In this document: piece by piece, positions 1 to 58,137 of the stretch
Layout: every line of letters begins with the position of its first letter
How positions within the stretch are numbered: the first letter of the stretch is position 1
Assembly: GCA_963920575.1 (NCBI GenBank)
Contig: OY986971.1
Location: 18,466,492 to 18,530,491, forward strand
DNA from: Narthecium ossifragum
Lineage: Eukaryota > Streptophyta > Magnoliopsida > Dioscoreales > Nartheciaceae
Reading direction: 5' to 3'
Length of the DNA: 64,000 nt
The notes under the pieces: generated by a model
The model's database searches: none
What the model saw: only the letters and a program-made list of their open reading frames with translations
Told to the model about the DNA's origin: nothing
Program-made: the position numbers and the translations under genes

Positions 1-520
1 CGCCGGCGGTAAAGGGAAGAAACAGAGCACCGCGGGAAAGAGAGAAGGAAGGAAGAAGAAGAGAAGGAGAAGGAGGAAGAGGAGGGGAAGAAAAGAGGGG
101 AAAGGGGGAGGGGAAAGCCGGGAAAGAGGGGGAAAAGCTGGGGGAGGGGGGGAGAAGTTTCTTCTCTCTGACAGGGGAGAGCGACGGCCGACGGCCGTCC
201 TCGTGAAAGAGAAAGAAAACACCGACTCGAGCATGATCGATCTCCAAGGCATGTGAGATCGATCTCCTTTGCAATCCAGATCGATCTCCCTAGCCATCCA
301 GATCGATCTCCTTTACTCAGAAAGGCAAACTTGGGCTAAAACATAAGCCCAAGCTCAGATCTTTCGATCTCGGGTTCACCTAGCCATTCTAAACAAACAT
401 GAACACAGACAAGGCCAGTGTGTGCACACGCGGGTGTGAAACAAACCAACAAGGCGTAATTTACCAAATTTCCCTTGCGGTCTACAACGAGCCACAGGGG
501 TAGAGGGACAGGTCCTCACA
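1..520 (-). mobile_element. L-family LTR, partial
   Basis: The segment ends at 520 with the family terminus GGTCCTCACA, the reverse complement of the L-family start TGTGAGGACC. Read on the minus strand it has the conserved block near the start (AATTTGGTAAATT, then a GTGTGCACAC palindrome at 418-427), a GATCGATC cluster at 228-315, and a purine-rich tract at 30-155. The same order is seen in the copy at 5381-7870. The other end lies outside the window. Confidence 0.75.
228..315. repeat. GATCGATC motif cluster in L-family LTR
   Basis: Four copies of the 8-base palindrome GATCGATC, most inside AGATCGATCTCC, occur in under 90 bases with non-repetitive spacers. The spacing is irregular, so this is a motif cluster and not a simple tandem array. 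Confidence 0.8.
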
Positions 521-535
521 AGAGGAGTGAAGATC

Positions 536-940
536 TGAGGACCCGTGCCTCCAACTCGGTCCGACAGCGTTAGGTCAAGGGTCTGGTTTTGTGATTTGGC
601 TTGGTTGGCCTTGTTCGCGATCGGGTTGATCGTTGCGACCCCAAGGGTAATTTGGTAAATTACACCTTGGTGATCGGTTTCACACCCGCGTAGTGCACAC
701 ACTGCATTGAATTGATGTATGTGATTGATGAGATCCTTATACGCGCTCTTGATCGAAAGGTTAGAGCTCGATCGGGAAAGATCAAAACAGACAGCTCAGA
801 TCAAACATAACTTTAGTATAAATACCCTTTTCTTCTACCCCGATCATGATCGTGCCAGCCTCTCCCTTCTCCGGAGCTTCTTCGCCACCACCGCCGGCCA
901 CGCCTCAGACCGGATGGGTTTTATGGGTCGGGGTGTGACA
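536..940 (+). mobile_element. 5' LTR of a short-LTR gypsy element (element C)
   Basis: It begins near TGAGGACCCG and ends in GGTCGGGGTGTGACA, followed three bases later by a tRNA-iMet primer binding site. A TATA box (TATAAATA, 817-824) lies inside. A related segment recurs at about 2570-2693, read as the start of the 3' LTR. The ends resemble those of Tekay/Del-type Ty3/gypsy LTRs, which is family knowledge and not proven here. Confidence 0.65.
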
Positions 941-943
941 ACT

Positions 944-955
944 TGGTATCAGAGC
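944..955 (+). other. Primer binding site, tRNA-iMet type
   Basis: TGGTATCAGAGC follows the LTR end TGTGACA, as in many plant LTR retrotransposons primed by initiator methionine tRNA. Confidence 0.85.
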
Positions 956-2569: not shown

Positions 2570-2693
2570 ATCAAAAAAACTCCTTGGTTCGATCACGTTA
2601 GGTCGATAGTTTGGTTTTGTGGTTGGCTTGATTGGCCTTGGTTCATGATCGGGTTTATCGCTGCGACCCCAAGGGCAATTTGGTAAATTGTGT
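2570..2693 (+). mobile_element. 3' LTR remnant of element C, interrupted by an insertion
   Basis: The stretch parallels about 557-660 of the 5' LTR (GTTAGGTC, GGTTTTGTG, GACCCCAAGGG). It stops at 2693, where another L-family LTR begins. The continuation is at 7972-8019 (TTGGTGGTCGGTTTCACGCC), matching 662-690 of the 5' LTR. Confidence 0.65.
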
Positions 2694-3695
2694 TGTGAGG
2701 ACCTGTCCCTCTACTCCTGGGTCGACCACTTGGGTCGGGTCCATGGCTCGTTGTGGACCGTAAGGGCAATTTGGTAAATTGTGCATTGTCGGTTTGTTTC
2801 ACACACATGTGGTGCACATACAGCCCCTTCTGTTTGATTTATGTGTTTGCTAGAATTGTAGGCGGGCTTGGGATCGAAAGATCCAAGATCGGAAGCGCAG
2901 AAACCTGTTTTTAGGACAGTTGACGGCCCCTGTGCAATCGATCGCTCCTTAGAGCGACCGATCTGACCTGTGGCGGTTGTCGGTGCGGTTGATGTGTCCG
3001 AATAAGGACGCGAACCGACTTAACCCAGCCCAGTCCGACCGATCAGTCTTGGGACCGATCGGTCAGACTCGAGGCTATAAGTAGCCCGAGACCTCCTTTG
3101 TTTTTCTGATTTTTTCTTCTTCCTTCTTCCCTTCCGTTCTCCCTCCTCCAGCCATCTTGCTGAGTGCTTGAGGGCTTGTTGGATTCGTGACAGCGTGAGG
3201 AAGATCTGTGGCTTGGTTTGAAGCCAGTTTGGTGCTCCAATAGCGGGGATTCAGCCGAGGTTTGCTTAGCTCTGTAGGTTTCTTCCTACTTGGGTTTAAT
3301 AGGGGTTTTCTATTAATCTAGTCGGTAGATCTAGGTGTTCTTGGTGTTGTTGTGTGCATCATGGTTAGCTTAATTCCTGTTTTGAGTTTCATATAATTTG
3401 ATTAAGATTTTAGTAGGATTTTAGCATGTTTAAACTCGGATTTTCCGGTTTCTCTGTTCTTGAAGAACAGCCGGTTTATGGCATGTTTTTGGGTCTGTAT
3501 GTGCATGATCTTGATTTAGGATGAACATGAGAGTTGGTAATTTTTGGATTTACTCTCAGTTGCAATCAGTTTCATAATTTTCTGATTTTCTTATGAATTA
3601 TTATGAGTTTCCTATGGATGGGCTGCGTTACAGCAATTAAAGGTAATTAATGAAGTTAATGATTTTGATTAGTGTTTTCCCGGTAATCGAGCCGT

Positions 3696-4261
3696 TAGGG
3701 ATGGCAAAATTGACCGCCCCGCTGGATAACCGACCCGATCCGCACCGATGGGGACGGGTATGGTATAGATTTTTTACCCGTGGATACGGGTATGGTTTAC
3801 AAATTTAAAATCCGCGCGGGTACGGGGCGGATTATGGTATTGGGTAATATCCGCCCTGCTATCCGCCCTGCTATCCGCCCCGCCCCGCCCCGCCACTAAA
3901 TGTTGGTTTGGTGGATTTTAAAGAGTCTATTTTTGTAATAATACTCTAATAAAGACTAATTGTTGATGAGTGTTTGTGGATCTAGATTTTAGAGACCGAA
4001 TGTTGATGATAGTTTGGTGGATTTAGATTTAGATTTTAGAGGCTTAATGCTAATTGAATGGTTTTTTTAGGTTTTGCGGATAACCGCGGATTGCGGATAA
4101 CCACGGATTGCTGGTAATATCCGCGTACCCGCGGGGATGGTTATGGTCCGCGATCCCCATTATCCGCGCGGGGAATGGGCGGTTATGGTATGGGCGGAGG
4201 AGTGCAGGGACGGGTATGGTATTTCCAATATCCGCCCTGATCCGCCCCGTTGCCATCACTA
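3696..4261. mobile_element. hAT-type MITE, 566 bp
   Basis: The terminal inverted repeats TAGGGATGGCAA and TTGCCATCACTA match at 11 of 12 positions. Exact 8-base target duplications CGAGCCGT flank it (3688-3695 and 4262-4269), the length expected for hAT transposition. The inside is rich in CCGCCCCGCCCCG, GGGTACGGG and GCGGATAACCGC blocks and has no ORF of note. The related LTR B lacks the insertion at its matching site (about 6700-6730). Confidence 0.9.
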
Positions 4262-5380
4262 CGAGCCGTCGGATGTTTCCCAGTTTTGGATATGTTGATT
4301 CCAGTATGTTTTCCAACGTTTATCTAAGTTGGATCTCGAATCCGATGTCGTTTGGACGTCGGATCGACGAGGTCGCTTAGCCTCTAATTAGAGGATCTTG
4401 ATGATTAAATAATATTATTTGTGTTCATCTGAGTTTTCGGGGTTGCTTCCCGTTGCAGGGGTTCGCGGTTGACGGTCATGGGACCGTCGTAATGCCAGGA
4501 TCCACTGCGGATTGGCTGGCAGCGCTCGGTGGTATCGTCGCAGCAATCCAGTTGGACTTGTTTATTATTTTATCATAATATTGCATGCTTACTTCTTACC
4601 TGCGCATGATCATAGCATGCATTTTTTATTGTGCATTAGATGCATAAGGATAGGGCGTGGACGATGGGTTGATCGCCGATCCGAGGCTTTCGGGTAGCTC
4701 GGATTTAGCTTTAGGACCGTGGCGGGTAGCATGGTCCAGGTTGGATGGTAGTATTCTGTCAATCTTGATGATATGCTTAGATGACTTGAAAACATGTTAA
4801 TCGATGATTTAGAGGCTGTGTCAGCCTCGAGCCAGGTGTTGAGGATGCAGCCAGTGTCATTGTTTCATTCTTGGGCAGAGGGTGTGTCTGCCCGGTAGAG
4901 ACTTGTCATGCCCAACAGTGTCTTCTTCCTACTGTACTAGGTGTTTCTAGGATGGGCTCAGTTCGTTAGGGTGACCATGGTTGGATACCTAGAGACACTG
5001 GTGGGGTTATTGGACCCCATAGCACACCTAGGCCTAGCTTGGGGGCGACACTGTTGTGTTCCCTCCTTTCTGTGTGTCGTAGTGTCGAACCCTACTGAGC
5101 TGAGTGCTCACTCCTAATCGGGCTGCGTTTTGTAGGTGCATGCGTTAGCTCTTCTTCAGTGGCCTCTACCGGGTAGGTGTTTGGTGGCGCAACAACGTCT
5201 GGCCATGCTTGAGGAGCGGTGATCGTCATCTACACCCCTTTTATTTAGATAGTCTCCTACGGGAGTGTGATGTATATGAATGTACCCTTTGAGGTTTTGA
5301 AATCTTTTATATTATATCTTTTGAGGTTGTTGATTATTGTTAATTACGGGTACTTGTGAATTGTTTAGGGAAACCATTAA

Positions 5381-7870
5381 TGTCGCGCCCCGACCCGCGA
5401 AAGCCCAACCGGGCCGGGCGACGCGAACCGGAACCTAATAAAACGCGGAAGAAAAGCTGGCGAGGGTTCCCTCTAACCTATTAGTCTCCCTAACAATTCA
5501 CCAAAAACACCCTCAATTAAAAGACATTAATTTAACAACATCGAACCACAGATTTCAAACCCAAGTGAATTTAATATACATATCCTCGGAGAGGGGAAGA
5601 TTCAAATACAACATTACTCCCGTAGGAGACTAACTAACAAAAAGTATAAAAGCAGTAAAGATCACCACCTCTCAAAGTCCACCAGGCGCCGCCGCACCGC
5701 CGACCAACTGCCCGGTAAGGGCCACAGAAGAAGAACTGACGCCTGCACCTGCAAAACGTAGCCCGGGTAGGTGTGAGCACTAAGCTAAGTAGGGATCTAC
5801 ACTACGCCACACAGAAGGAAGAGGGAAACACAAAAGTGTCGCCTTCAAGCTAGACTCGAGTGTGCTACAAGGGTCCCATAACCCCCCACCGGTGTCTCTA
5901 GGCATATCCAACCATGGTCACCCCAACGGACTGGGCCCATCCTGGATACACCTAGTGTCGCAGGGTGCCAGCTGCGGTCACCCAACACAGGCTGGGCCCA
6001 CACTGATCCCCTACTGGCAGGAACAGACACTGCCTGGGCCGGACTAACCCTCCCTGCCCCCCAAAGAACAAGACCCGCCACCGGTGGCACCCTCAACACC
6101 TTACTTGAGGCCGACACGACCTCTAATCATCATCAAGCAACAGGTGTGCCAGTCCTCTAGGCCTATCATCAAGTTTGACTTGACACTACAATTCAAACCG
6201 GGTCCAAACTACCCAACCCCGGTCCTAGGGCTAAGTCCGAGCTTCCAGTCTCGGGATGGCGACCCACAGATCACCCACGCCCTAACCAATGTAACTAATG
6301 CACAACAGGGAAATGCATGCTATGAACATACACAGATAAGAAGTAAAGCATGCAACAATATGACAAACTTCATATAAGTCAACCGGATCGCTGCAGTGGT
6401 ACTATCAACCGCTGCCAACCGATACGCAGCGGGTCCCGGCATTACGACGGTACCACGACCGTCAACCGCGAACTCCTGCAACGGGAAGCAATCCCGAAAA
6501 CCGCTGATGAACAGTAAACAATATAATATTATATTCTGAAATATAATATTATATTCAAAACACCCAAAACCTCTACTTAAGGGCTAATTGATCCCGTCGA
6601 TCCGATGTCCAAATCACGTCGGATTCAAGATCCAACTTAGCTATCAGTAGGTGTATATACCATGATCAACATATCCAAAATTCATAATCATCCAATGGTT
6701 GGATTAACGGGAAACCACCAATCAAAACCGCTATTCAAACTAACTTACCAATTAATTGGTGCAACGCAGCCCTCCAATAAACAATTCATAACAAATCATA
6801 GCAAAATCGAAAAATTATGAAATCAGTTGGGTTAGAGAGTAGATTCAAAGATCTACAACTCTTATGCTCATCACAACCCAAGATCATGTACGTACCGGCC
6901 GGAAAACTCGCAGCAAGCCGGCTGTTCTTCAAGAACAGCAGAAACCGGAAAATCCGAGCTTAATCATGCATAAATCCTACTAAAAACTCAACCAAAGATC
7001 ATGAAACTCATATCAGAAATTCTACTAGGCATGAGGAAACCAACAAGACAAAGATCAACAAGATCCAATGGCTAGATCTAAAGAAACCCATTAAAGAACA
7101 CAGTAGGTAGAAGAACCTACCGAAGAACGCTTTCCTCGGCTGATTCCCCGCGAGTTGATCACCAACAAGGTTCCAAACCACTTCAGGGATCTTCCTCTCA
7201 TTACCACGAATCCAACGAGCCTTAGAACACCCAAAATGATGGCCGGAGGAGGGAGAAAGGAGGAGAGGAAGAGGGCTGCCGGAAAAACAGGGGAAAAGAA
7301 CCGTCGGGAGAGAAGAAAGAAGAAAGAAGAAGAAGAAGGAAGGAGGGGAAGGAGAAAAGGAGGAAAAGGGGGAGGGGACAGCCGGGAAAGAGGGGAAAAA
7401 GGCGAAGGAGGGGAGGGAAAGTCCTCCCCTTCTGACAGGAGAGAGCGACGGCTAACGGCGGCCGTTGTCGCGAAGCAGAAAAGCCACCGACGCGAGTCCG
7501 ATCGATCGCTCCAAGGAGCGATCGATCGCTCGCGCCCCGGATCGATCCAAACACCAAGTCGGATCGATCCCACACCAAGTCGGATCGATCCGAGCGGGTC
7601 AAAACCCACCGACTAGCTCACGAGTCCGATTGATCGCTCCAAGGAGAGATCGATCGCTCAAGGGTCGTCAACTGCCCCAAAGGCAAGCTTTCGCACGCCC
7701 GAGCTGGGATCTTCCGATTTCGGGTCCACCTAGCCATTCTAAACAAGCACTAACACAAACAAGGCCAGTGTGTGCACACACGGGTGTGAAACAAACCAAC
7801 AAGGCGCAATTTACCAAATTGCTCTTGTGGTCTACAACGAGCCACAGGGGTAGAGGGACAGGTCCTCACA
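5381..7870 (-). mobile_element. L-family solo LTR B, nested in LTR A
   Basis: The element runs from TGTCGCGCCCC to GGTCCTCACA and is flanked by exact 5-base duplications ATTAA (5376-5380 and 7871-7875). LTR A resumes directly after the duplication (7876-7971). B lies in the opposite orientation to A and is homologous along most of its length, including the reverse complement of the AAAACCGGAAAATCCGAG region. It has no primer binding site or internal coding region. A purine-rich tract occupies 7240-7440. Confidence 0.88.
7497..7660. repeat. GATCGATC motif cluster in LTR B
   Basis: Repeated GATCGATC, often in the form GGATCGATCC or GATCGATCGCTCC, with spacers of 10-30 bases. It is homologous in position to the clusters in the other L-family LTRs. 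Confidence 0.85.
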
Positions 7871-8019
7871 ATTAAGCTAGATAGAAGCCTCGCCAAATTT
7901 ATTTCGCATTTAGTTAGCTTCTGGTTCGCATCGCCCGGCCCAGTTGGGCCTTCACGGGTTGGGGCGTGACTTGCGCCTTGGTGGTCGGTTTCACGCCCGC
8001 CTTGGCAATTTGGTAAATT

Positions 8020-9692: not shown

Positions 9693-9695
<3 letters not shown>

Positions 9696-11214: not shown

Positions 11215-13463
11215 TTCCGCAATCTATTTTTCACAACATGCATAGCGGAAAATGCTCGCTCAACAGTTACAGTTGCAATTGGTAAAATTAGCAACAACTT
11301 CAAGAGTAAGAAAATCAACGGATATACTGTATCTCTTCCTGTCTCAACCATTTTTTTGCAAGCTCAGTTATGTCATTCAATTCTATAAACTCCTTACTAG
11401 AGTGCATATCTATAATATAAGTCTAGAGTTGATTGTCGAGAGCCATAAGATCCACCTCTGAAAACTCAACGGGATAAAATCTTGCAAGACGGACCAATTT
11501 GGATTTGTCAAAAGATGAAAATGAATCTTTTGGATTTAGAGAAGACATGCATAGCAACAATTGTGTATTCACTTCATTAAATCGATTATTCAACTCTTGA
11601 AGCTGCATATCAATTACTGTGTAGAATAAATCAATACGATAATGACGATCATATGTGATATCTTCACCCTTTCGACGCGATTGACCATGAGGTACATACT
11701 TATCATTCATACAAGGAACATCAATATCATAATCTTTACAAAATGAACATACTTCATCGATTTGAGAATCCCAACCTTCATTTCTCATATTCTGTAATCT
11801 CTCATTTGATATTCTGACAAGATTCATAGCATTTACAATATCTTGTTCTTTTCTCTGTAGTGCTTTTGAGAGTTCATTTGTTACTGCCAATATATTTTTC
11901 ATCAAATGCAAATCAAATATGAACTCAAAAGAATATAACAAATCCAATAAAACACCTGCATCAACTCGTTGTTCAAGAGTTGTTCCATCACCTTTCACAA
12001 TCTGAAGAACTTCAATCACAGAAGAATATGAAGCAATCAAGCTTAGCAATGTACCATAATGTGAACCCCAACGAGTATCACTTGGCCTTTTCAGACTAGT
12101 CTCTTGATTAAGACCTCGTCCAGTCACAAGTTCACCACGAGCAAATGCCTCAAGAACTTTGGATTTTTCTTTATCTCGTAAAAGATCTTTTCTTTTACAT
12201 AATGCTCCAACAATATTAACTACTCTTGAAATTGAAACAAAAAGAGTAGCGATTTGAAAATGATTTGCAGCGGTATCCACAAGAGCTAATTGTAGCTGAT
12301 GTGCGAAGCAATGAATTGAATATGCATATTCATTTTCTTTCAAAATAAGAGCTTTTAGACCATTGAATTCACCTTGCATGTTACTAGTACCATCATAGCC
12401 TTGACCTCGTAGTCTTTTAATGCTTAATCCATATTTGGAAAATAGTGCTTCAATTGCTTTCTTAAGTGAAAGAGTTGTTGTATCACTAACATGCACAGCT
12501 CCAATAAAACGCTCTATTACAGAACCATTCTTATTTACATATCTCAAAGCGACAACCATTTGCTCTTTGATAGAAACATCTCGAGATTCATCAATTATAA
12601 TAGAAAATAATGAATCTTCAATGTCAGTGATAATAGCATTTAATGTTTCAATTGTACAAGCACAAACAATATCTTTTTGTATATCAGATGTCGTCAACTT
12701 CAAATTTTCTGGAGCATTTTTTAGAACAATTTCAATCTCTTTATTATTTTCAACCAAAAATTGCAAAAGCTCTAAAAAATTCCCTATGTTGCTTGATTCA
12801 TTTGATTCATTATGGCCACGAAAGGATAACCCTTGTCGAAGAAGTAACCGAATGCATTTGATGGATGCAGTCAAACGGATTCTATAATCCACCTTTGTTT
12901 GCTCTGATTGTTTATGGAGAAAAATCTCAATATGTTGATCTTGATTCAACAATGTTTGACACATTATGTATGCTTGATTATGAGCACTATTAGGCCCTCC
13001 TACGTGTATACGAAACTTTTCTTCTTTTTTTTCAATTTGTAAAACCTTAAGTAATAAAGACGTCACCGCCACCTTGCTCTCCAAAATCCGATTTAAAGAG
13101 ATAACAATGCAAACAAAATACAACATCTTTTGATACACTATATTCCAACCAACTTCCAAACTCATTGAACCAACAATGATTGAACCTTCGATATGCATTT
13201 CCTACTTTTTTCTGAGGAAAAATATGTTGACGAGGTTGACAAGGCCCTTTTTGTAGATATGCCTTACGAATAGAATCACGATCCTTAAGCGGATAGTCTG
13301 TAATCTTAGGTCGCAAACCAGGATCCGCTGGAAGATCTACTAAGCTACTATTTGATGTAAGATTATGAGTTCTCTTGGCACTAGGTTCTGCTTCATTATG
13401 CCCAACATCTTCTACTGTAGAAGGTGACGGATTTGGCTTTCTTTTAATTACAAATCTATCCAT
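11215..13463 (-). pseudogene. hAT transposase (TTF-type zinc finger / DUF4371 / hAT dimerisation), broken
   Basis: The start is MDRFVIKRK at 13463. An N-terminal TTF-type zinc-finger region follows (WLEYSVSKDVVFCLHCYLF, about residues 110-130), then the transposase core with DESRDVS and the CFAHQLQLALV motif. The C-terminal hAT dimerisation motif (TVERAFSAMHVVKNRL) is next to the gap. Breaks are visible: TAA and TGA near 13034-13049, a frame change in the A-run just after, and TAG at 11423-11425. Homologous protein continues in the expected register after each. These are domesticated-looking ZMYM-like hAT proteins in many plants, but this copy is dead. Part of the C-terminus is in the gap. 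Confidence 0.88.
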
Positions 13464-21720: not shown

Positions 21721-22199
21721 GCTGCGGGATCTCGGCCACTGTCTTCAGGAAGGATGCGGTGTCCGCGCTGACGCCGCCGAGCCTCGGCGGTTTCTTCTTC
21801 AACCGGTGGCGAACCATCAAACCCACACCCACTCCTACTGCAGCCAAGAAATTAATGTTGATTAGACTATGACCCATCAAAACCCACACCACCAATCCAA
21901 AGCCTTCCCAGCAATTAATGCTGATTAGACTGAGGCCGATCAAAACCCACACCCACTGCAACCCCCTGGCCCCGTCCCCTCCACTCTCCTAGAAGCATGT
22001 GCCAACTTAACATGCCCTATGACTCTACTACGACCTATTATCATAGTTTACAAAAGAAAAATAATTTGAAAATTTAAAAATTACATATTTATCTCCGAAA
22101 ACTTTCATATACCATATGGATCTTTCAAATATTTAGTTTCTTGTAAAAATATCATTCTATTAACTTAAGTCACTAATCTAGTGTTATCTAGATCAATTT

Positions 22200-23693: not shown

Positions 23694-23811
23694 CGGGCGG
23701 TCGCGGCATCTCTCTCGCCGTGAGAGAACGGCCACCGAGCCACGCGATCGAGTGGGCTCGATCGCCTTAGGCGCTCGGCGTCGGTGTTTGCTCGGCGACG
23801 GCGATGACCGG

Positions 23812-28131: not shown

Positions 28132-28132
28132 T

Positions 28133-39481: not shown

Positions 39482-39499
39482 TGGCGCCATTGTCGGGGA
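39482..39499 (+). other. Primer binding site of the Athila element, tRNA-Asp type
   Basis: TGGCGCCATTGTCGGGGA differs at few positions from the TGGCGCCGTTGCCGGGGA site typical of Athila. Confidence 0.85.
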
Positions 39500-41600: not shown

Positions 41601-41788
41601 AATTATGGAAGTGTTTAAGAAAGTTCATATTAACCTTCCTCTTTTGGATGCGATTAAACAAGTTCCTGCGTATGCGAAATTCTTAAAAGATTTATGTACT
41701 CAGAAGCGTCGATCTCGATCGCATGTTTCGAAAAAGATTTTCCTAACCGAATAAGTAAGTTCTTTTTATTCGTAGTGATATTCCTCCT

Positions 41789-42895
41789 ATGCTTAAAGAT
41801 CCGGGTACTCCTACGATATCCTGCATCATAGGAAGTCATTTGATAGAAGGAGCGTTACTTGATTTGGGAGCTAGTGTGAATCTCATGCCATATTCATTAT
41901 ACTCCAAATTCGGTATAGGAGAATTAAAACCCACCGCTATGACTCTACAGTTAGCCGATCGGTCAATCAAAACCCTACGAGGTATGCTTGAGGATGTCTT
42001 AGTTAGGGTTGATCAATGTGTATTTCCTGTAGATTTCGTAGTGTTGGATATGGAACCAAGCGTGCAAACTAAGAAAACCATTCCGATAATTCTTGGTCGA
42101 CCTTTCTTAGCAACAGCTAATGCTTGCATTAATTGTAGGGATGGTATTATGACAGTTACTTTTGGAAATATGGAATTGAAATTGAATATTTTTCATACGT
42201 CAAAACGCCATGCATATGATGATGATTGTTTTGTTATAAATGCTTTAATGAATAATGATGATATTGATATGTGTGTGGATGATGAGATGTATAAGATAGT
42301 GCATGATGACGATGTATCGAGTGAAAGTTATGCAAGTGCATGTGATGCTTCATTTTTCGATGATGATGATGTGGTAACTAGAGATGATTTGCCAGATCTG
42401 AATATTGATTTTCCAGAACTACATGGTGAGATTTTGGATGGGAATGATGGAATACTGATTGGTGATGTTAATGATCTTGTTATTCTCGAGGATGTGAAAG
42501 GTTATGACTTGTATGAGGATGTGTGTAATATTTCTTGGAAAAGGATTTCAATTGAACCTCTACCGCTTACTTCTTCAACTCTAGCCTTACCATCTTTGAT
42601 TATGCCGTCTCAGCTTGATTTGAAAACACTACCTTTTAATCTTAAATATGTCTTCCTTGGAGCTGATTCTACGCTTCCTGTGATTATCTCCTCATCGTTA
42701 ACCAAAACTCAGGAATCTCAATTGATTGAAGTTCTTAGGTTACATAGGAGAGCCATTGGATGGTCCATAGGAGATCTTAGAGGTATTGACCCTTCTATTT
42801 GCATGCATCGTATACATTTAGAGGATGAAATTAAAAGTGTTAGAGAGATGCAGCGTCATCTTAATCCTTTAATGAAGGACGTGGTCATGAAATAG
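41789..42895 (+). pseudogene. Athila protease and start of RT
   Basis: The aspartic protease motif ALLDLGASVNLMPYSLY is followed by TMTLQLADRSIKTLRG-like sequence, VDFVVLDME and IPIILGRPFLATA. A long Asp-rich linker follows (DDDDVVTRDDLPDLNIDF). At the C-terminal end it enters the RT N-terminal region (GWSIGDLRGIDPSICMHRI). A TAG at 42893-42895 separates it from the next part of the same frame set. Confidence 0.88.
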
Positions 42896-45800: not shown

Positions 45801-47403
45801 TGATGAATAAATTTTATATCTCGCAAGTATACGAATCGGTGCAATCAGTATAGTAGCAAGACGAGTATCGTACCCACAGAGATTTGTAGAGATCATTAGA
45901 GTAAAACGCTAAAGAACAGAAAAGAAAGAAAATAAGGAAGGGAAAATAAGAAATATGAAGTCTCGAAGATAGATGATCTAATAACGAAATAAGAAAACGA
46001 TGAAAATATTATGGATGAATACTAAGGTTCCGATTTCACCATAACATCCTCATTCTATGCATTGAATCAATAAAGATCTCAGTTTAATTCCAAGGGCTCG
46101 TTCTTCCGGTATGATGATCCGTTCGGCCGCGGTCTTCACCAAGTACCCTCAATTAACCCTAACTAATGAACCCATAACTAAGTGTTAATTAAGAATCCAT
46201 TAAGCTCTGAAGAACAATTATGAACCAAGAATGCTCTTAGCTTGAACCCGGCCTCGACATAAACTCATTCATTCATAGATCCTGCAAGATTAGGGAATGA
46301 ACCCTCGCCCAATCTCACATAAAACAATCTATAATACTTTTATTGGCCAGATAAAGGTATTTAAGATCTCAGTTATAATAATGAATGAAACAAGGAAAAT
46401 AAACTGATAAAATAATCATGATCCAATAACATAGAATGATTCAGTTAGGGCTACATCGGTACCTTAGAAAAGAAACTAGCCACTCATGTTCACCATGAGG
46501 GCAACAAAACTAATGAAGAAATAAAGAAGAAATAAGAAAAAAAAACCAAGCCTGGAACCCTTCTCCTCGCCTCCAAACGCTGCCAAAAAGTCCTTCCTCA
46601 AACCCTAGAAAGAGTCCTATTTATAGCCCCAAAGCCTCTCCATCCACGGATTAGATCTAAACCGTTGATTTTCTTCACTGGGAAAGTCGGATCGATCGGA
46701 CTTTAGGTGTTGGATCGATCCGTCTCATTAAAAACATCAATTCCTGGCTTCGCCCGAGTCCGATCGATGGACGGATCGATCAAACTCTGCTCCTCTAAAA
46801 AGCATACGTTCTGTCAACCTTTAATTCCCAAGTCCGATCGATCGGACTATGAGTGTTGGATCGATCGGTTGAGTAAAAATCCGCTGTTTTTGGCTTTTCC
46901 CGAGCCCGATCGATCGGTCCATTGGTGTCGGATCGATCGGACCCCTTAGGAGGGATGGAGAGATCGATCGGACTTCGTTCAGCCAAAAAAAAATAGGTTC
47001 TGTCACGTTTCTGCGTAGTCCGATCGATCGGCGGATCGCTCGGACTTCCAGCTTATTTACTGTGCTGCCATTCAGACTGCGCCATCGGTACTAAAATTGC
47101 CGTAACTTCCTCTAGAAAACTCGGAATCACGAACCGTAAAATTGTCCAGAATCTAGACTTCAAGAGCTTTCCAACCATATATGGCACATAATCTGATTCT
47201 TCTTGACCAGGTACAGATTAATCTTTAAAGTTGATCCATGCACTCTTTTCAGCTTCTTTTCTCCTTTTTCCTGCATTTTCCAAACAACCATGTGAAGCAA
47301 CATATAGATATAAAAATAGGAATAAAGATGTTGATTAAAAATAATAATCTAGCAATTGAGATGGTTATAAGGCTATTTAGAGTGCACTTTCATGCATTCA
47401 TCA
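45801..47403 (-). mobile_element. Solo LTR nested in the Athila element
   Basis: It starts TGATGAATAAA and ends ATGCATTCATCA, with inverted 8-base ends, and exact GTAAT duplications flank it (45796-45800 and 47404-47408). The low-coordinate end carries GTATCGTACCCACAGAGAT, a sequence common near the 3' end of plant gypsy LTRs, so the LTR points to the minus strand. A TATA box on that strand (CTATAAATAG, 46617-46626) lies just downstream of a GATCGATC cluster (46688-47045). No interior is present. Confidence 0.88.
46688..47045. repeat. GATCGATC cluster in the nested solo LTR
   Basis: About ten motifs of the form TCGGATCGATCGGAC, TCCGATCGATCGGAC or GGATCGATCGG. The flanking bases differ from those in the Athila LTR, so the cluster is not a recent copy of it. 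Confidence 0.9.
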
Positions 47404-47408: not shown

Positions 47409-48412
47409 CACCCTGTTTTTGCAGTTCTGGAGAATTAAGATCGATCTCCATTACCTGGCAGATCGATCTTCTTTGACAATGCAAGTTTACCTAGGTGATA
47501 GGGCAAGCCAGATCGATCTCTTTCACCTTGGGATCAATCTGGATCGGCCTCTAACGTCATAAAAATATATTTTTTTTTTTGCTGGCTCGCGGTCGACCGG
47601 CGCATCGTCCGTCATATCGATCGTGAGCCTCTGTGATGAAATTGGTGTCTCAGGGTCGATGTGGTGATCGACCGTCGCATCTGGAGGGAAGAAGATCGAT
47701 CCCATGTTGCCTTGAGATCGATCTTTATCGGGTTCCCTGAAAAAAAAACAGAGTACTCGATTGGACTCAAACTCGGACCACCGCTTTCCACACCATTGGC
47801 TTTCCTTATTTCCTTACCTTCTTCTCTCCTTAATTCCTTTTTCTACTAGTTTCCTTAAGTCCATCTAGTACTCTTAGAAGCGGCGAGACCCCCTATTTAT
47901 ACAGCCATTAGCCCTTTGTTTCGTCACTTCTAACCATAGCCACCCAGGTGTGTCCTTCGATCATCTTCTCTGCCTCCGGCGTGGAGCTCAGCGTCTTCGG
48001 CGTTTCCGGCGTGGATCTCAATAGCAAGTTCATCCGAGGATTATTCGGTAGGAATCCCAGTCTTTTACTTCCTTCCTTCTCTCTTTTCTCTCTCAGTTCC
48101 TGTTGACTCTACCAGTGGAACCCATGGTTTTCGCCATGGATTCCGACCACTGACGCCGGTGTCCTCCGTATTCCCTTTTCCTTCTTTGTCTTCGACCTTC
48201 CCTTCTTCTTTGATCTTTCTTTCTTTCCTTCTCCCCATTTGTTCAACCATCCCCTGTTTCACTCTCTTCCGTGCTCAGTTCTTTTTATTTTTATTTTTCT
48301 AGTCTGGGGATGTGAGATCGATCCCCTTAACCCTTAGGATCGATCTCATCCTTCCACTTATGGTTTCTCTCATCTTACAGCCATTGAACTAACCTACAAA
48401 TTAATTACAGCC
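47409..48412 (+). other. Athila 3' internal region, noncoding
   Basis: The Athila interior resumes after the solo LTR. AGATCGATCT-type motifs occur at 47437-47530 and 47690-47722, and again at 48317-48345. A TATTTATA box at about 47894 lies after them and before pyrimidine-rich sequence (48060-48260). This resembles an internal promoter with a leader ahead of the ORF at 48413, but it is only an inference. Confidence 0.4.
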
Positions 48413-48970
48413 ATGTTGTACTCTGGATCCAACGACCACTCCTATAATTCCCAGGACGCCATCATGGATCCGGGATCCCCAGTCTCACAAGATTCTGCTT
48501 CGTCACATGATGCCATCGAGTCCTTCTCATCTGAGGCAGTCGGCAGTAAACTTGACTTCATCACTTTCCCGCCTGGCACAACTTCTTGGCAAAATCGCAC
48601 TCCGGGTGGGACGATTAATTATCCTCAGGGTATTGAGTTCCATGGTATGGACCTCACGTTTTATTCTATGCAAAACTTGGCAGCCAACTTACGACAGCAT
48701 CCGGACCTGGCTGACCCATGGATTGCATTCAAGCACCCGGATGGTTCAACATCCGTGGTGCTTCCTAGGGCCGCTTATGAATCGCCACCTGCCTCAGAAC
48801 CTGCGTCACCGTATGCGAGTGACGATCCGGATCGTCCACCTACACCAAGGAGGGCCGATTCCGATTTCGATGAGGAGAGAGAGAACTATATCGCAGATAT
48901 GTCCGAAGAGGATTATGAAGATGAGGACGAAGAGGAAGAGGATGATGAAGATGCGGACAGTGATAATTAG
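48413..48970 (+). CDS. Athila 3' ORF, acidic C-terminus, function unknown
   Basis: An uninterrupted 185-residue frame starts MLYSGSNDHSYNSQDAIMD, preceded by a pyrimidine-rich stretch. It has an Asn/Gly/Tyr-rich middle (GTINYPQGIEFHGMDLTFYS) and ends in a strongly acidic tail (DMSEEDYEDEDEEEEDDED). It is intact, unlike gag and pol upstream. I do not recognise a family. Its place between pol and the 3' LTR fits the variable extra ORFs of Athila elements. Confidence 0.5.
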   Translation: MLYSGSNDHSYNSQDAIMDPGSPVSQDSASSHDAIESFSSEAVGSKLDFITFPPGTTSWQNRTPGGTINYPQGIEFHGMDLTFYSMQNLAANLRQHPDLADPWIAFKHPDGSTSVVLPRAAYESPPASEPASPYASDDPDRPPTPRRADSDFDEERENYIADMSEEDYEDEDEEEEDDEDADSDN

Positions 48971-49177
48971 GCATTAGGATGCCTTGGACTTTTATTTTCG
49001 TGGTGGAAGTTGGCTTTGCTTTCTAAATTGCTTTCTAAATTGCTTTCATTTGCTTTCAATGCTTGTAGCTTTGATTTCCTGCTCTTTAGAATTATGCCCT
49101 TTAAATTTCCTACGTAGTGCTTATTTACTTAATAAAATTTTAGTTTTCGGAAATTATTTTTGGGCGTTTTCCTATCG

Positions 49178-49213
49178 GGATCGATCTGCTTGCCAAGCAA
49201 GATCGATCTGGAT
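49178..49213. repeat. GATCGATCT pair in the Athila 3' region
   Basis: GGATCGATCTGC and AGATCGATCTGG lie 20 bases apart, upstream of the next ORF, which begins at 49519. The stretch 48971-49518 has no supported gene otherwise. Confidence 0.75.
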
Positions 49214-49518: not shown

Positions 49519-50950
49519 ATGCCGCCCAAGAAAGCCAAAAAGCTTGCTATCAAAGCAAGGGCTTCTACTTCTGGTAAAACGCGGGTTCCCACACCATCTC
49601 CGTCGTCTTCCTCCTCTGATCCGACGTATGTACCCTCACCATCACCACCTTCATCTCCTCTGATCTCCTCCGTTCCTCCGGTGGTGCCATCGGCAGCTCA
49701 GCAATCATCTTCCCCACCCCACACTCCCCATGGCTGGACATCAACCGCCGAGGCTCCTGCCAGTCCATCTCGAGATCCAGGCGGGTCGTCGATAGGCAAG
49801 CGGAAAGCTTCCGATGGCGCAACACCCACTCCCGGGCGCTCCTGCACGGCCGACAAAAAAACGAAAACTCACTCGCCCACCTACTGCTCCTACCTTCACA
49901 GCCGGCCTCGTTCCGAGATGGCAGCGAGAAGTGAACCTCGAGTTCACGTTCGACATCGAGCGTCTTCGGACGGTGGATATCGCCAGTGAGGGTGTTGTGA
50001 CCATGGAGGCTCGCGAGCTGCTGCCGATCTGCTACCCTTCCACTGACGTCTACCGGCGACTAGTCTGCATGTTCTACCAGAACATGGCACCGATACCCTA
50101 CAGTGACGATCGCGACCAGCCGGTGAGCATGACCAAAGCCCCTGCACTTGGCTCCCGGACTACCATTGAAGACCACGACATAATTTTTGACGCCCAGATT
50201 ATCCGCGAGATTCTGGGCATTCCAGACCATGCTCCTGGTTTACATCCTCTGACCGCCGATGAGGGGATACCGCCAGATGCCAATATTGGAGCGTTCCTTC
50301 ATCCGGAGAGGGCTGGTGGAGTACAGTTTTCACGAGCTGAGCTGCATCCGTCCCTCTGGTTTGTGGATGATGTGCTGCGCCGGAACGTCTTCCAGTGCAG
50401 CCATGATCAGTATAGGACTGGACTTTGGCTATCAGCTCTGTGGCTGATCGCCAAAGGGTGGTCCTTGGACGTGTCCTAGTTGATTCTTGAGGACATGGCG
50501 CTGTATTACCGGGGCGCCGTGCGCGATTGCCTGCACAGCTACAAGACTAAAGCTGCCCCACATCCGTCCCTGATCTCTGCGTTTCTGTCATCCCGTGGGT
50601 TTGTACCGGAGGATGACCCGATTGTCACTACTGACGCTTTAGCTTATGCCCGATTTGGTCGTGCCACTTGGGCTAAAGTCGTCGGGCATATGCACAAAGC
50701 CGGTGCACCACAGAGACGGCGGCGCCGCCAGCAGCCTGTTCCACCCAAGACTGAGCCAGACCCCACACCAGCCTCCACTTTTGGACCTGAGCAGCTCACG
50801 CTGAGTGACATCTACAACGAGCTGCTTGTCGTCCGTAGACGACAGGATGCCCTTCAGCGGGATGTCGCTCGGATTTGCGAGCACTTGGGTATTTCTCCTA
50901 CCGCCCCAGCCGACTGCCAGTCTCCTGGACCGTCCGATCCCCACCCTTGA
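49519..50950 (+). pseudogene. Athila 3' ORF (putative plant transposon protein type)
   Basis: A frame starting MPPKKAKKLAIKARAS has a Ser/Pro-rich N-terminal third. After a frame change near 49830 a globular region follows: RWQREVNLEFTFDIERLRT, YRRLVCMFYQNMAPIPYS, IIFDAQIIREILGIPD and DYRTGLWL-like QYRTGLWLSALWLIAKGW. A TAG at 50477-50479 (expected Gln) splits it from the C-terminal part (LILEDMALYYRGAVRDCL), which ends in a coiled-coil-like LLVVRRRQDALQRDVARICEHLG. The pattern resembles the putative plant transposon protein domain found in Athila 3' ORFs. Confidence 0.65.
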
Positions 50951-50963
50951 GTTTAGTGTTTAC

Positions 50964-52530: not shown

Positions 52531-54230
52531 TGATAACGCGTGGAAAGTGCACAAATCGCCGCTTTAACTAGGTCCTGGTAGCCTCCGAGCAATGCTATTT
52601 TGATGGTCTATGGTGCATTTCAGGTATAAGAGCCTTAAACAAAGGTTAGGCCAAGTTTGGTGCTAAAACGAAGTTATTCTGGCAATTCTGCGCAACTCAG
52701 ATCGATCTGACATTCAAAGGGGATCGATCTTATTATTCCAGCACGAAGCGGGCCAACTGAAGCAAAGAAGATCGATCTCAATACAAGAAGATCGATCTAT
52801 TTTCCAGCCGCAGGCGTGACAGAGAGTTAAATAAAAGCACTTTATTTTTCCCGCAGGCGAGACAAGTCGGATCGATCCGAACTTGGAGACTCTATTTAGC
52901 TGTGGAAAGAAGATCGATCCGTTTTTCCAAGGGGATCGATCTTGGTTGGGCAAAATCCAGATCCTGAGTTCACGGACGAAAAAAATCGATCTCTTTTGGC
53001 GCTGCGGGAAAAATAAAGGGTTGAGATCTAATCCAAGTTAGGGTTTTACAAAAGCCTATAAATAGACCTTGTTTGAGGATTTTTGGAAGCGATCCATAGA
53101 CGAATTTTCCTCTCCTCCTTGTTGTTTTCTTGGCTTCTCTTCATCAATAAAAATTTGGGTTAGATCTTGAAGATAGATCCATGGCGGGAGCGCGTTATCA
53201 ACCTTCTTCGATGGATCGTCTCTTCAAGATGAGTAACTAAATTCTTAGTCTAGGAAATTCTATGATGTAATAGAGAGTTTATCTAGGTTTTTCCTATGGA
53301 TCAGAGCATGTACTTTATGATGGTTTAATGGATAGATTTCAGATTTTATATATCTGTTGGTAATATTTATTATGGTGAATGAATTGTATGTTCTTTGTGC
53401 CGTAGATTCGGCCTGTCTTTTCTCATTTTTTCCATGGTGATACAGCCGGAATCTTTGAAAACTCATAACACAAAAGTTGTAAATCTCTTCCTTAGCTTTC
53501 CACCGAATCTTGAATCATCCTGTTTCGAGTTCGGATGTGAACGTTACGCTGAGATTACGATCGCTGGTTTTGAGCAATGCATGTTAGAGGCTAGGATTAT
53601 GACTTGTCCAAGATGCTTTCATGCTAGAACCATGTTAGATCTTAGGATTGGATTCTAAACCCTAGATTATGATTGTAGGAGTGCTAGAACCACTACCTTA
53701 GTGCTAGAACCCTTAAGACATTTGATTGTAACCTACAATTCGTTTTTTATCTTTATTGATTAGGCGATCTCAAAGTGCTAGAACCACTTTGATTATTCTC
53801 ATACCAATTATCCGCTGATTTGACCTTCGTTCTGACTTAGACTTCTAATGAATCTATGTTGAGTGATAGTGGACCTATCCGATCTTCTATCAAACTCAGA
53901 AAACCATCTAGAACTTATGGAATTGCTCTTATCCTAGGAAGGCCTAGATAGCCATAGATTACGGATTAGAAATTCCTAGCTTTTTCTCCTATTGTTATTT
54001 CCTTGATTTAGTTTAATTCGAGTTAAAAGTAGTTCGAAGACCAACTATCATTCCTCTTTCTCAACTTTTGATTTAGAACTATGCCCGGTAATTAGACTTA
54101 ATCCTGTTTTCCTTGAGGACCGACTCGGACTTGCTACTATCTACCCATAAAGTAGCTAGTTAGTAGTTTGATTATAAATTTATAATTTTGGCGTTCTTGT
54201 TAAGGTAATGACACTTTTCAAGGCGTGTCA
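52531..54230 (+). mobile_element. 3' LTR of the Athila element
   Basis: It begins TGATAACGCG and ends AAGGCGTGTCA, matching 37630-39475. The U3 GATCGATC cluster (52698-52992) is shorter because the 123-base duplication is missing and the motif string has an internal deletion. TATA box TATAAATA at 53057-53064. GCGGG duplication follows at 54231-54235. Confidence 0.93.
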
Positions 54231-54242
54231 GCGGGTCAACAC

Positions 54243-55310
54243 TGAAGCTCTAAGAGGGGGGGCTTATCTTAGGCTTTAAACAATAAAATCAATTAAGGAA
54301 AACTGAGTAGGAGGAGTCTAATCAAGTAATATGCTTGCAATGATAAGAGTAGATACTTAAGCATATAAATAGAAGGATAGAGGAGAGTTAGAGAGATTGC
54401 ACCAGAATATTTATAGTGGTTCGGCCAACCATGCCTACGTCCACTTCTCCCAAGGGCCTCCTTGGGGTTCTACTACTTGCAAGACCTCTTACAAGCTTCC
54501 ACCAAGCTTACGGGTGCTTGGCAACCTATCCACCAAGCTTACGAGTGCTTGGTAACCTTACAATCTCTCCAATCTCACTATTGGATCTCTCTCTCAAAGT
54601 CTATTTCACACTTGAAGTAGTTTTACAAAGGTTTAGCTCACTAATAAGAGATAGAAACTTGCTAGAATATTATTACAATAATCCCTTAGCTCCCTCTAAG
54701 TGCCTGGCAAGTTAGCTGGACTTTCTCTTATATAGCTGAGCCTCCAACCCCTCCAAATAGCCTCCTAACGGCTATTTCTTTCTCCTGCAACGGCTCTTTA
54801 ACGGCTAGTTTCTGGGCTCACGGTCGACCGTCGCATCGTTCGTGACATCGTGCGCCAGCCTTTCTTGAGCCACGGTCGATCCACCAATCGACCGTCGCAC
54901 CGCACAGTCGATCCGCCTATCGACCGTCCCATCGACCGTGACATCGTCCGTCAGGCTCTGTTGCGAAAACCTCTTCCCAGGGTCGATGCACCGATCGACC
55001 GTCGCTCCTTCGAGCCAAGTCACATAGGCCACGGTCGATCGGTCCATCGACCGTCACACCTCACGGTCGACCGTCCCATCGACCGTGACATCGACCGTCG
55101 CCTATATTCCCATTGTCAGCTTTCGCGGTCGATCCTTCCATCAACCGCCATATCCCACGTTGATCCATGCATCGTCCGTCGCATCGACCGTCAGTACAAA
55201 ACTCAATAAATATGATTTAAATGCTTTCCAAATTAAGGGATAATAATATTAAATCATTGTTTTATCATCAAATATATATTGACATCATCAAAACAATATC
55301 TGGGCTAACA
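54243..55310 (-). mobile_element. 3' LTR of the Copia element
   Basis: In minus orientation U3 starts at 55310. A cluster of GGTCGATC and ATCGACCGTC motifs lies at 54826-55195. A TATA box (TATATAAG, complement at 54727-54734) follows. Confidence 0.9.
54826..55195. repeat. CGGTCGAT / ATCGACCG motif cluster in the Copia LTR
   Basis: About twenty occurrences of ACGGTCGAT, its complement ATCGACCGT, or close variants (CGGTCGACCGT, CATCGTCCGT). The core TCGATC or TCGAC is shared with the GATCGATC clusters but flanks differ. The equivalent in the other LTR is 57626-58018, with an extra motif pair near 57735-57755. Confidence 0.9.
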
Positions 55311-55931
55311 ATCTCCCTCTTTTTGATGATGGCAACCCTTTAAATTGTGATGATAAAACCTTGAAAGCTCCCTCTTAATTTGTGCATCCATTTACCTCAT
55401 AAAATATGTTCTAAAGTTAATTTCACTGAGGCATGCAAGTCATATGTCACTAAAAGGATATATCATGCTTGATTATAGGTCAAAAGATGTGAAAGTGCAA
55501 AATATGACATATGTACCTCTTTGTATAGAACCATGATATTTGAACATTGATTAAATCATCAGTAAATCCTTAAAAGATTTCAGATATTCGAATATAAGGT
55601 TTTAAGAGCTTTCAAAAACTGATATCACAATATTTCTCCCTCTTTGACATTATCAAAAAGATTTGGTAGAGGGGGAGAGAAGAATCAAACAAAGGCTTTT
55701 CTTAATAGAAACAAATAGAAAGTTTTAAAATCATCTCAAAACAATATACCAAATGAAGATAATAAAAAACGGTCATTTGTAAAAAGTAATCAAATCTTCA
55801 CATAAAGGACTTTCTTAAACCATTTTTAAACATGAAATTTCTTTTTAAAAAAAAATGGAATAAGAAGATGTAATGGAGGAGACATATATCGAAAATTAAG
55901 ACATACCTCCATTACCTTTTAAACCAAAATG

Positions 55932-56984
55932 TTATCCTCCTTTAAATACCTTGTACCTCCACTTGTCAATTTTGTTTTCTTTTATTTCGAAGGCAATTAG
56001 ACAAAGATTTGCAGTTTCTTTTTCTTCTTCTTCTTCGGAGGTAGAGGTCGAGTCACTTTCTTCCTGGGCCTTCTTCTTCTTCTTTGAAGATTTGAGCTTT
56101 GGACAATCCGGCATGTAATGTCCGGGCTTCCCAGACTCATAACAAGTAACTTTATTTAAGTAAGAAGAGGGCTTTCCTTTTTCACCTTTGGAATTTTTCT
56201 TTCCTTGATTCTTGATGATTCGTTGGATTCTCCTTGTGATCTTTTGCATCTCCTCATCATCATCTTCATCGCTTGAGTCGGATGAATCCTTGTATGTTGA
56301 CTTGAAAGCAATGGTTTTCTTTTTCTTCTTTTCTCCATCATTACTCCTCTCCATGTTCATCTCATATGTCATGAGAGAACCCATTAGCTCATCAAGGGAC
56401 AGCTTGGTTAAATCTTTAGCCTCTTCGATTGCTGTCACCTTGGGATCCCATGACTTAGGTAAACACCTAAGAACCTTTCTCACTTTCTCATCATTAGTAT
56501 AGCTCTTACCAAGAGAATCAAGAACATTTATAATATTGGTAAAGCGAGTAAACATTTCATTTATATTTTCATCATCCTTCATAGAGAATAACTCATAGTC
56601 ATTAACAAGCATGCTAATCTTAGACTCCTTTACTCGGCTAGTTCCTTCATGAATTATCTCAAGCTTCTCCCATATTTCCTTAGCCGATTTACAAGCTGAA
56701 ATTCTATTAAATTCATCAGGGCTAAGGGCACAAAATAAGAAATTTTTGGATTTGGCATTGACTTGGAGATTTTTTAAATCAGTACGGGTGAGCTCACTTC
56801 TAGCCTTAGGCACTTCCTTTCCTTCATGAATTTTGGTAGGAATAGTTGGGCCATCCTCAATAGTCATCCATGCTTCATAATCCATGGATTTTACAAATAT
56901 TTCCATTCTATTCTTCCAATATGTATAATTTGAACCATTGAAGTATGGTGGACTATTTGTGAATTGTCCCTCTATGTTTTCCAT
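55932..56984 (-). CDS. Copia gag polyprotein
   Basis: The start at 56984 gives MENIEGQFTNSPPYFNGSNY and 350 residues without a stop. The front has the DUF4219/UBN2-type capsid pattern: YTYWKNRMEIFVKSMDYEAW, AKEIWEKLEIIHEGTSRVKESK and LRCLPKSWDPKVTAIEEAKDL. The C-terminal third is Lys- and Asp/Glu-rich around a zinc knuckle, CYESGKPGHYMPDC. Its second Cys is Ser, so zinc binding is probably weakened. An upstream in-frame TTG lies in the primer binding site and is not a credible start. The frame is open and complete, in contrast to the decayed elements around it. Confidence 0.9.
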   Translation of the reverse strand: MENIEGQFTNSPPYFNGSNYTYWKNRMEIFVKSMDYEAWMTIEDGPTIPTKIHEGKEVPKARSELTRTDLKNLQVNAKSKNFLFCALSPDEFNRISACKSAKEIWEKLEIIHEGTSRVKESKISMLVNDYELFSMKDDENINEMFTRFTNIINVLDSLGKSYTNDEKVRKVLRCLPKSWDPKVTAIEEAKDLTKLSLDELMGSLMTYEMNMERSNDGEKKKKKTIAFKSTYKDSSDSSDEDDDEEMQKITRRIQRIIKNQGKKNSKGEKGKPSSYLNKVTCYESGKPGHYMPDCPKLKSSKKKKKAQEESDSTSTSEEEEEKETANLCLIAFEIKENKIDKWRYKVFKGG

Positions 56985-57048
56985 ATTGATTTTGGATCCT
57001 CTATGGGTTGTTACACCACAAAAATAGAGACCTAGCTCTGATACCAAT

Positions 57049-58137
57049 TGAAGCTCTAAGAGTGGGGACTTATCTTAGGCTTTAAACAATAAAATCAATT
57101 AAGGAAAACTGAGTAGGAGGAGTCTAATCAAGTAATATGCTTGCAATGATAAGAGTAGATACTTAAGCATATAAATAGAAGGATAGAGGAGAGTTAGAGA
57201 GATTGCACCAGAATATTTATAGTGGTTCGGCCAACCATGCCTACGTCCACTTCTCCCAAGGGCCTCCTTGGGGTTCCACTACTTGCAAGACCTCTTACAA
57301 GCTTCCACCAAGCTTACGGGTGCTTGGTAACCTATCCATCAAGCTTACGGGTGCTTGGTAACCTTACAATCTCTCCAATCTCACTATTGGATCTCTCTCT
57401 CAAAGTCTACTTCACATTTGAAGTAGTTTTACAAAGGTTTAGCTCACTAATAAGAGATAGAAACTTGCTAGAATATTATTACAATAATCCCTTAGCTCCC
57501 TCTAAGTGCCTGGCAAGTTAGCTGGACTTTCTCTTATATAGCTGAGCCTCCAACCCCTTCAAATAGCCTCCTAACGGCTATTTCTTTCTCCTGCAACGGC
57601 TCTTTAACGGCTAGTTTCTGGGCTCACGGTCGACCGTCGCATCGTCCGTGACATCGTCCGCCAGCCTTTCTTGAGCCACGGTCGATCCACCAATCGACCG
57701 TCGCACCGCACAGTCGATCCGCCTATCGACCGTCACTCCTCACGGTCGACCGTCCCATCGACCGTGACATCGTCCGTCAGGCTCTGTTGCGAAAACCTCT
57801 TCCCAGGGTCGATGCACCGATCGACCGTCACTCCTACGAGCCAAGTCACATAGGCCACGGTCGATCGGTCCATCGACCGTCACTCCTCACGGTCGACCGT
57901 CCCATCGACCGTGACATCGACCGTCGCCTATATTCCCATTGTCAGCTTCCGCGGTCGATCCTTTCATCAACCGCCATATCCCACGGTCGATCCATGCATC
58001 GTCCGTCGCATCGACCGTCAGTACAAAACTCAATAAATATGATTTAAATGCTTTCCAAATTAAGGGATAATAATATTAAATCATTGTTTTATCATCAAAT
58101 ATATATTGACATCATCAAAACAATATCTGGGCTAACA
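57049..58137 (-). mobile_element. 5' LTR of the Copia element
   Basis: It matches 54243-55310 with few substitutions. The TATA box complement is at 57533-57540 (CTTATATA). It is followed on the minus strand by the PBS. Confidence 0.9.

Follow-up and report, generated by a model that had tools for sequence, protein, structure and literature searches.

The stretch of DNA analysed here (the window), 64,000 bases of contig OY986971.1 from Narthecium ossifragum, carries long terminal repeats (LTRs) of a group that we call L (L1 to L5), an Athila element with a solo LTR, S, inserted into its linker, and a Copia element (Table 1). The eight-letter palindrome GATCGATC is present there in 72 exact copies, all of them clustered and all within LTR retrotransposons, and it is the top-ranked palindromic 8-mer of the window by count; in 200 dinucleotide-preserving shuffles of the window its mean was 1.42 and its maximum 6. 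An original prediction, made from the letters of the sequence, had placed clusters of this motif in L, Athila, solo and Copia LTRs and in the Athila interior, and the positions it assigned to L, the Athila and solo LTRs and the Athila interior contain all 72 exact sites to within one base.

The enrichment is genome-wide. In the assembly that was searched (379,400,290 bases in 150 contigs, about 379 Mb) the 22-bp pair GATCGATC-N14-GATCGATC occurs 33,313 times, against 3 occurrences of the reversed pattern taken as a control. We also sampled 20 regularly placed 10-kb pieces, chosen blind to the motif and all within the first 15 Mb of contigs C1-C4; they hold 103 GATCGATC sites and one reversed word, with at least six sites in 9 of the 20 pieces, a single site in two and none in nine. 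The clusters are thus confirmed, at a scale larger than is visible within the window. The prediction had named counts no higher than in shuffled sequence, or a motif confined to one family, as findings that would tell against it; what we see is the genome-wide excess and a motif present in more than one family.

The GATCGATC sites are phased doublets, mostly 22 bp apart, which is new here. Among consecutive spacings of up to 120 bp in the window, 35 of 59 measure 20-23 bp, while none is below 20 bp and none falls at 24-28 bp; leaving out the 3' LTR of Athila and the duplication inside its 5' LTR (described below), the count is 30 of 49. When duplicates were removed, the nine clusters held 30 pairs at 20-23 bp against 4.0 expected and a maximum of 14 in 20,000 random within-cluster placements, and the sites therefore often form doublets with about two helical turns between them. 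In the 20 samples 43 of 77 such spacings are of 20-23 bp, and 35 are of exactly 22 bp. Doublets also recur at about 60-68 and 70-73 bp in the window and in samples L005-L024, which hints at a higher-order period, though the copies are related and non-independent and we draw nothing firm from it.

Within these arrays the core is near-invariant and the spacers are variable. An alignment-free test of constraint took 175 exact cores from the window and the samples and read the words at set offsets downstream of them. At 20-23 bp the words comprised 78 exact cores, 7 with one mismatch and 2 with two, the remainder being background-like, while three control offset ranges gave 1, 0 and 0 exact, 0, 1 and 3 one-mismatch, and 13, 1 and 3 two-mismatch cores. 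The 22-bp spacers are 54% identical within a cluster (48 pairs) against 33% between clusters.

Exact arrays occur in two LTR groups, L and Athila (including S), that are unalignable outside the core. In same-strand searches with the cores masked, the Athila-L and Athila-S matches were only of 14-24 nt (E at least 0.045), and S against L gave no match up to E 1. The claim that unrelated families have a common element therefore holds across LTRs unalignable outside the core, and the number of families comes down to two groups. The window's two Copia LTRs, which had been counted as carriers of the same element, hold no exact copy and have another architecture; the cluster listed in L2 (2934-3065) consists of related variants and lacks an exact GATCGATC; and the solo LTR S, called independent, looks Athila-like. 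We count S with Athila because its first bases resemble the Athila LTR and because S-like and Athila-LTR-like pieces lie side by side in sample L009. All seven of the proposed TATA-like sites, two of them those of Copia, are present, with a cluster upstream of each.

Table 1. Retrotransposon features of the window and their box clusters (a box is an exact GATCGATC site unless a variant is named; TSD, target-site duplication; TATA, position of the TATA or TATA-like site)
Feature	Position	Strand	Remarks
L1 LTR cluster	235-308	-	4 boxes, exact 22-bp spacing; LTR exceeds the window's left end
L2 LTR U3 cluster	2893-3070	+	variants GATCGGTC, GACCGATC, AATCGATC at 20-bp spacing; TATA-like 3076
L3 solo LTR	5381-7870	-	clean TSD ATTAA; inserted into the L2 LTR close to its end (whole nest 2716-7975)
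L3 cluster	7500-7655	-	6 boxes, 20-22 bp spacing, one further off
L4 LTR	23809-26245	+	no clean target duplication, no TATA seen
L4 upstream cluster	24020-24114	+	4 boxes
L4 second cluster, deeper in LTR	24695-24903	+	5 boxes
L5 solo LTR	31680-34011	-	TSD CAACG; TATA-like 33694
L5 second cluster, downstream of TATA-like site	33003-33318	-	11 boxes
L5 upstream cluster	33721-33797	-	3 boxes
Athila 5' LTR	37631-39475	+	bounds by self-alignment
Athila 5' LTR U3 cluster	37799-38237	+	14 boxes, 20-22 bp doublets; TATA 38303
Athila-type primer binding site TGGCGCCATTGTCGGGGA	39482-39499	+	
Athila gag-pol frames (gag, protease, reverse transcriptase, RNase H, integrase)	39865-45088	+	
Solo LTR S	45801-47403	-	1603 bp, the best of three candidates, with TSD GTAAT and an 8-bp terminal inverted repeat; TATA 46617
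Solo LTR S cluster	46690-47029	-	9 boxes, including three 23-bp doublets
Athila linker boxes after pol	47439-49208	+	four 22-bp doublets and one single (9 boxes)
Athila 3' LTR	52532-54230	+	bounds by self-alignment
Athila 3' LTR U3 cluster	52700-52941	+	7 boxes; TATA 53057
Gag-only Copia element	54243-58138	-	5' LTR 57049-58138, 3' LTR 54243-55311

The Athila element was assigned by its Ty3-type gag-pol, with the genes in the order gag-protease-reverse transcriptase-RNase H-integrase, and by a TGGCGCC-type primer site, which we take to be an Athila marker; a homologue search with its gag gave 10 matches, the best 48% identical. No target duplication was found near the ends of the Athila and Copia elements in a scan set at 4 bp and TG..CA. 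At 37991-38240 in the 5' LTR a unit of two doublets is tandemly duplicated (123 bp, two copies, 99% alike); the 3' LTR has a single copy of this unit, and the box number therefore changes within one insertion. The frames after pol, at 48405-48977 and 49796-50950 on the plus strand, have no clear family and are not identifiable as env; 49796-50479 gave a Transposase_32 match below threshold (24.6 bits against a cut-off of 45).

The L LTRs are 2.3-2.5 kb long and hold 4 (in the incomplete L1), 0, 6, 9 and 14 exact boxes from L1 to L5. Del/Tekay elements have a tRNA-iMet (initiator methionine) primer site and a chromodomain integrase. An iMet-type primer site, TTGGTATCAGAGC, adjoins the L LTR end in sample L023, where a zinc-knuckle frame follows downstream, and in the window (934-955) it adjoins an L-like end at 944. 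In the pieces analysed we found no pol belonging to L, and the homologue search with L gag gave no match, so that Del/Tekay Ty3/gypsy is only our guess for L; its LTR length lies within the 1.2-3.7 kb of the Del/Tekay rows that we consulted in a published table.

The Copia element is probably a gag-only Sirevirus, judging by its terminal signals, and, with gag as its sole frame, apparently non-autonomous. The Sirevirus signature comprises multiple AGGGGGAG polypurine tracts, of which the last lies 10 bp away from the 3' LTR, an AT/TG attachment site and a TATCAGAGC primer site (PMC2829016). The window copy has three AGAGGGAG tracts, which agree in place and number and are one base off the published octamer; their distances to the 3' LTR are 10, 65 and 333 bp. 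It also has a AGAGGGAG-AT-TG junction at that LTR and a TATCAGAGC primer site (TTGGTATCAGAGC at 57046). Its boxes (54826-55195 and 57626-58018) are built of GGTCGATG repeats at 12 bp, with many runs ending in GGTCGACC or GATCGACC, and also show 20-bp spacing; the box words are CGGTCGAT and ATCGACCG, CGGTCGACCG is present, and TATATAAG lies downstream of the boxes. The Copia box is related to the GATCGATC box and has a different architecture, and identity of the two was ruled out by the absence of any exact GATCGATC in the window's two Copia LTRs and by the different spacing.

Some exchange between the superfamilies is suggested. Among the GATCGATC doublets of the Athila linker, at 47590-47675, there are Sirevirus-type boxes, ATCGACCG and, once, CGGTCGACCG; single GATCGATC sites lie inside Copia-LTR-like stretches in samples L013 (2780) and L014 (3633). 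A stretch of a Copia LTR in L014 is matched twice, at 76% over 93 bases by this part of the linker and at 75% over 96 by the Copia LTR of the window, and it may be a cassette common to two superfamilies.

The bases around the cores had been thought to differ by family. Flank dialects do exist, and they are partly common to several families. L1 with L4, the Athila LTR and the Athila linker score mutually, with z of 5.1-8.7 between groups (the two Athila parts score each other at 5.7 and 6.1), and S scores with L3 and L5 (z 4.7-6.8), while L3 scores L5 at 4.3 and L5 scores L3 at only 1.9; the split is unclean, with Athila scoring L5 too (z 3.8), and kinship of the sites inflates all these values. 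Inside the L family the upstream flanks pair L1 with L3 (91%) and the clusters pair L1 with L4 and L2 with L3, a conflict that would fit cluster swapping between LTRs, or rapid turnover. The interpretation offered in the original prediction, that of convergent or exchanged elements that might be bound by one host factor or be a common silencing target, is supported in part: for the sharing, and for exchange, which this conflict and the L014 match suggest. The arms flanking the core are symmetric at the first two positions in 58% and 55% of 176 distinct sites, and shuffling the arms across the whole set lowers these values to 35% and 32%; arms shuffled within clusters (168 sites, 30 clusters) give 61% and 55%, equal to the observed symmetry, so that it reflects a cluster-level dialect and pair-by-pair hairpin covariation is ruled out.

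The nearest known counterpart is the repeated-motif (RM) box of Sireviruses (Ty1/copia; Bousios et al. 2010). RM boxes are palindromic, number at least 8 per RM-bearing element and lie in the upstream LTR half shortly before the TATA box, and where an element bears env, more of them occupy the linker that follows pol; their core is common to Sireviruses of very low sequence homology, and they form CpG islands (PMC2829016). The consensus table of that paper gives CGGTCGACCG in Vitis and ACAATCGATTGT, which contains ATCGAT, in Tnd-1, all but Tnd-1 having a CGG-CCG core. The boxes described here are likewise palindromic, at least 8 per Athila element (14 in the 5' LTR, 7 in the 3' LTR and 9 in the linker), placed before the TATA box in the upstream LTR half and repeated in the Athila linker after pol, although the frames beyond that linker are not recognisable as env. 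They differ by their core, GATCGATC, by their carriers, Athila (Ty3-type) and L, by the added clusters downstream in L5 and deeper in L4, by a single core serving mutually unalignable LTRs within one genome, and by the 22-bp doublets, a spacing not described in the parts of PMC2829016 consulted. The specificity to Sireviruses that is claimed there for RM boxes was judged against other Ty1/copia elements; a Ty3/gypsy comparison was not found in those parts.

Other systems share single traits. Del (Tekay) LTRs have variable 5' CpG islands, and monocot LTRs are generally CpG-rich just upstream of the TATA box; the arrays resemble these in being a CpG-rich, fast-changing block within the 5' part of a long LTR, and a repeated palindrome is not described in the accessible text (PMC4029996). 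In the Tnt1 superfamily U3 is the fast, modular LTR part that differs between subfamilies, yet a core common to unrelated families is not reported in what we saw of PMC1838419. Dense arrays of short motifs in transposon non-coding parts are needed for protein targeting in the VANC-VANDAL system, where, unlike GATCGATC, the motif is same-oriented, family-specific and bound by an element-encoded protein (PMC5735166). The short repeated units of the REM-GDE1/CLSY3 system recruit chromatin machinery and are of another sequence, 10-mers one nucleotide apart with 86 motif-1 sites in Arabidopsis (PMC12270911). The REM/CLSY3 motif was rejected as the identity of our box on sequence, GATCGATC at 20-23 bp against TTTTGCTTAT and AAGCGGAT repeats, the window itself not having been scanned for those units. 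A literature search with little subscription coverage found no report of boxes of this type in Athila or Del elements, and the consulted part of a paper on Retand elements (PMC11963269) has nothing on them. On this comparison the position, palindromy, copy number and post-pol boxes would be known traits, as in Sirevirus RM boxes, while the core sequence, the lineages carrying it and the phasing of the doublets appear new.

From the data discussed above, we consider it moderately probable that the clusters are promoter-proximal cis-regulatory arrays to which a host factor binds cooperatively, and that the elements turn this factor to their own use. Each GATCGATC palindrome would be the core of a site for a putative dimeric sequence-specific host protein, a pair of sites 22 bp apart would act cooperatively, and transcription would be driven or timed by several such pairs stacked ahead of the LTR TATA box, with further pairs, in Athila, between pol and the downstream reading frames. 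The core would be kept since coreless copies would be untranscribed and leave no descendants, while spacers and flanks drift and unrelated LTR lineages converge on the core or trade it, with different flank dialects. What we observe is enrichment on a genome-wide scale, phasing into doublets, a core that hardly varies between spacers that do, sharing between LTRs unalignable outside the core, and a position near the TATA box; the dimeric protein, its host origin, activation and selection on element propagation we infer.

Several points speak against such a role. The Athila linker boxes, the second L4 cluster, farther into its LTR, and the L5 cluster downstream of the TATA-like site are not predicted by a simple upstream-activator model, and a plant factor with a GATCGATC site was not found in the literature search; AGATC, a half-site of GATA-type zinc fingers, would be a possible lead, for which that search gave nothing usable. 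Conservation is not settled by aligned pairs, because repeated cores anchor unmasked alignments. In 17 such pairs core substitutions were 1.4% at non-CpG and 3.2% at CpG positions, and flank substitutions 23.6%; with the cores masked, 14 pairs agreed in 259 of 567 columns of the core and in 1776 of 2259 of the flanks, and the three closest pairs in 137 of 144 and 630 of 730, with no difference between core and flanks in one of the three. The low core agreement arises because a masked core has no weight in the alignment; in most of the diverged pairs the cores had shifted against each other or lay outside the aligned part. A strong reading of conservation from the 17 pairs was withdrawn as biased, and the claim of constraint therefore rests on the alignment-free test. 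Finally, the arrays fold strongly as RNA in comparison with shuffled sequence (z -5.5 for Athila, -4.4 for S, -7.9 for L5 and -11.7 for Copia, with -1.6 for one Athila LTR segment as a control), and RNA structure could be what counts in them.

This folding also favours the main rival, which we regard as unlikely on balance: that the arrays are a silencing hub, where a host factor recruits small-RNA or methylation machinery, or palindromic transcripts fold and are diced, and the boxes cannot be shed. In Arabidopsis, short tandem motifs are the places where REM-GDE1 complexes recruit RNA polymerase IV (PMC12270911), palindrome clusters of maize Sireviruses gather excess small RNAs, as cited in PMC10760457, and 5 of 19 one-mismatch words near exact cores are of the CpG-decay type (GATTGATC four times, GATCAATC once). 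The CLSY3/REM motifs are, however, different from the box, a pure hairpin would not need one invariant 8-mer, and the arm symmetry is explained by flanks shared within clusters. If the boxes did nothing but harm, their loss would moreover be expected, but the core survives almost unchanged; its retention argues that the boxes help the element, although a contest in which use and silencing pull against each other, proposed for maize Copia elements in PMC10760457, would fit equally.

It is improbable, in our estimation, that the binding protein is instead encoded by one of the retrotransposons, much as VANC proteins are encoded by VANDAL elements, and is parasitised by other families. VANC21 binds arrays of YAGTATTAY in the non-coding parts of its own family, and its motif is rare outside that family (PMC5735166, in the parts seen), whereas the GATCGATC core spans mutually unalignable LTRs. 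The extra Athila frames after pol would be candidates for such a gene; no DNA-binding domain was recognised in those scanned, the best match being the sub-threshold Transposase_32. We give a similarly low standing to common descent, in which the boxes stood in the LTR of an ancestor of both groups and the remainder diverged beyond alignment. An ancestral array is possible in principle if L is also Ty3/gypsy, and the core is the sole alignable part; against this, an 8-mer would survive such complete divergence only under selection, the box of Sireviruses is a different one, and in L2 drift has already occurred within one family. Neutral tandem amplification with spread by LTR-LTR recombination is very improbable: arrays do duplicate (the 123-bp unit), clusters conflict with flanks inside L and a Copia-LTR-like stretch matches the Athila linker, but tandem duplication and drift would erode cores and spacers alike, and exact cores between diverged spacers, with the 20-23 bp spacing recurring around unrelated ones, count against it.

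To return to a host factor acting at promoters, one may go further and suppose that one host protein is the shared promoter factor of most LTR retrotransposons in this genome, the lineages having converged on a single phased doublet code. We put this forward tentatively, as a possibility that is rather doubtful; if true, tens of thousands of copies would be one network, switched on, silenced or used for genome folding via one protein. The host factors needed by plant retrotransposons are mostly unknown, and an invariant core with a fixed spacing makes such a dependence directly testable. The arrays also suggest that palindrome boxes ascribed so far to Sireviruses alone occur more widely in plant LTRs, and they offer a clean case for telling activation from silencing.

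Among the best 120 of 2387 PEPKR2 kinase matches, the top named ones come from monocots (Dioscorea 76%, Elaeis 74%, Dendrobium 73%). Outside the arrays, the window contains a long open frame with a DUF4371 domain (11423-13201, minus strand), which we take to be hAT-type transposase-like, a minisatellite of 19-20 bp units containing TTTTCATC (22192-23128) and, at 58613-60872, degenerate repeats of 7/14 bp that are rich in pyrimidines (TTCTCTT) and run for about 2 kb.

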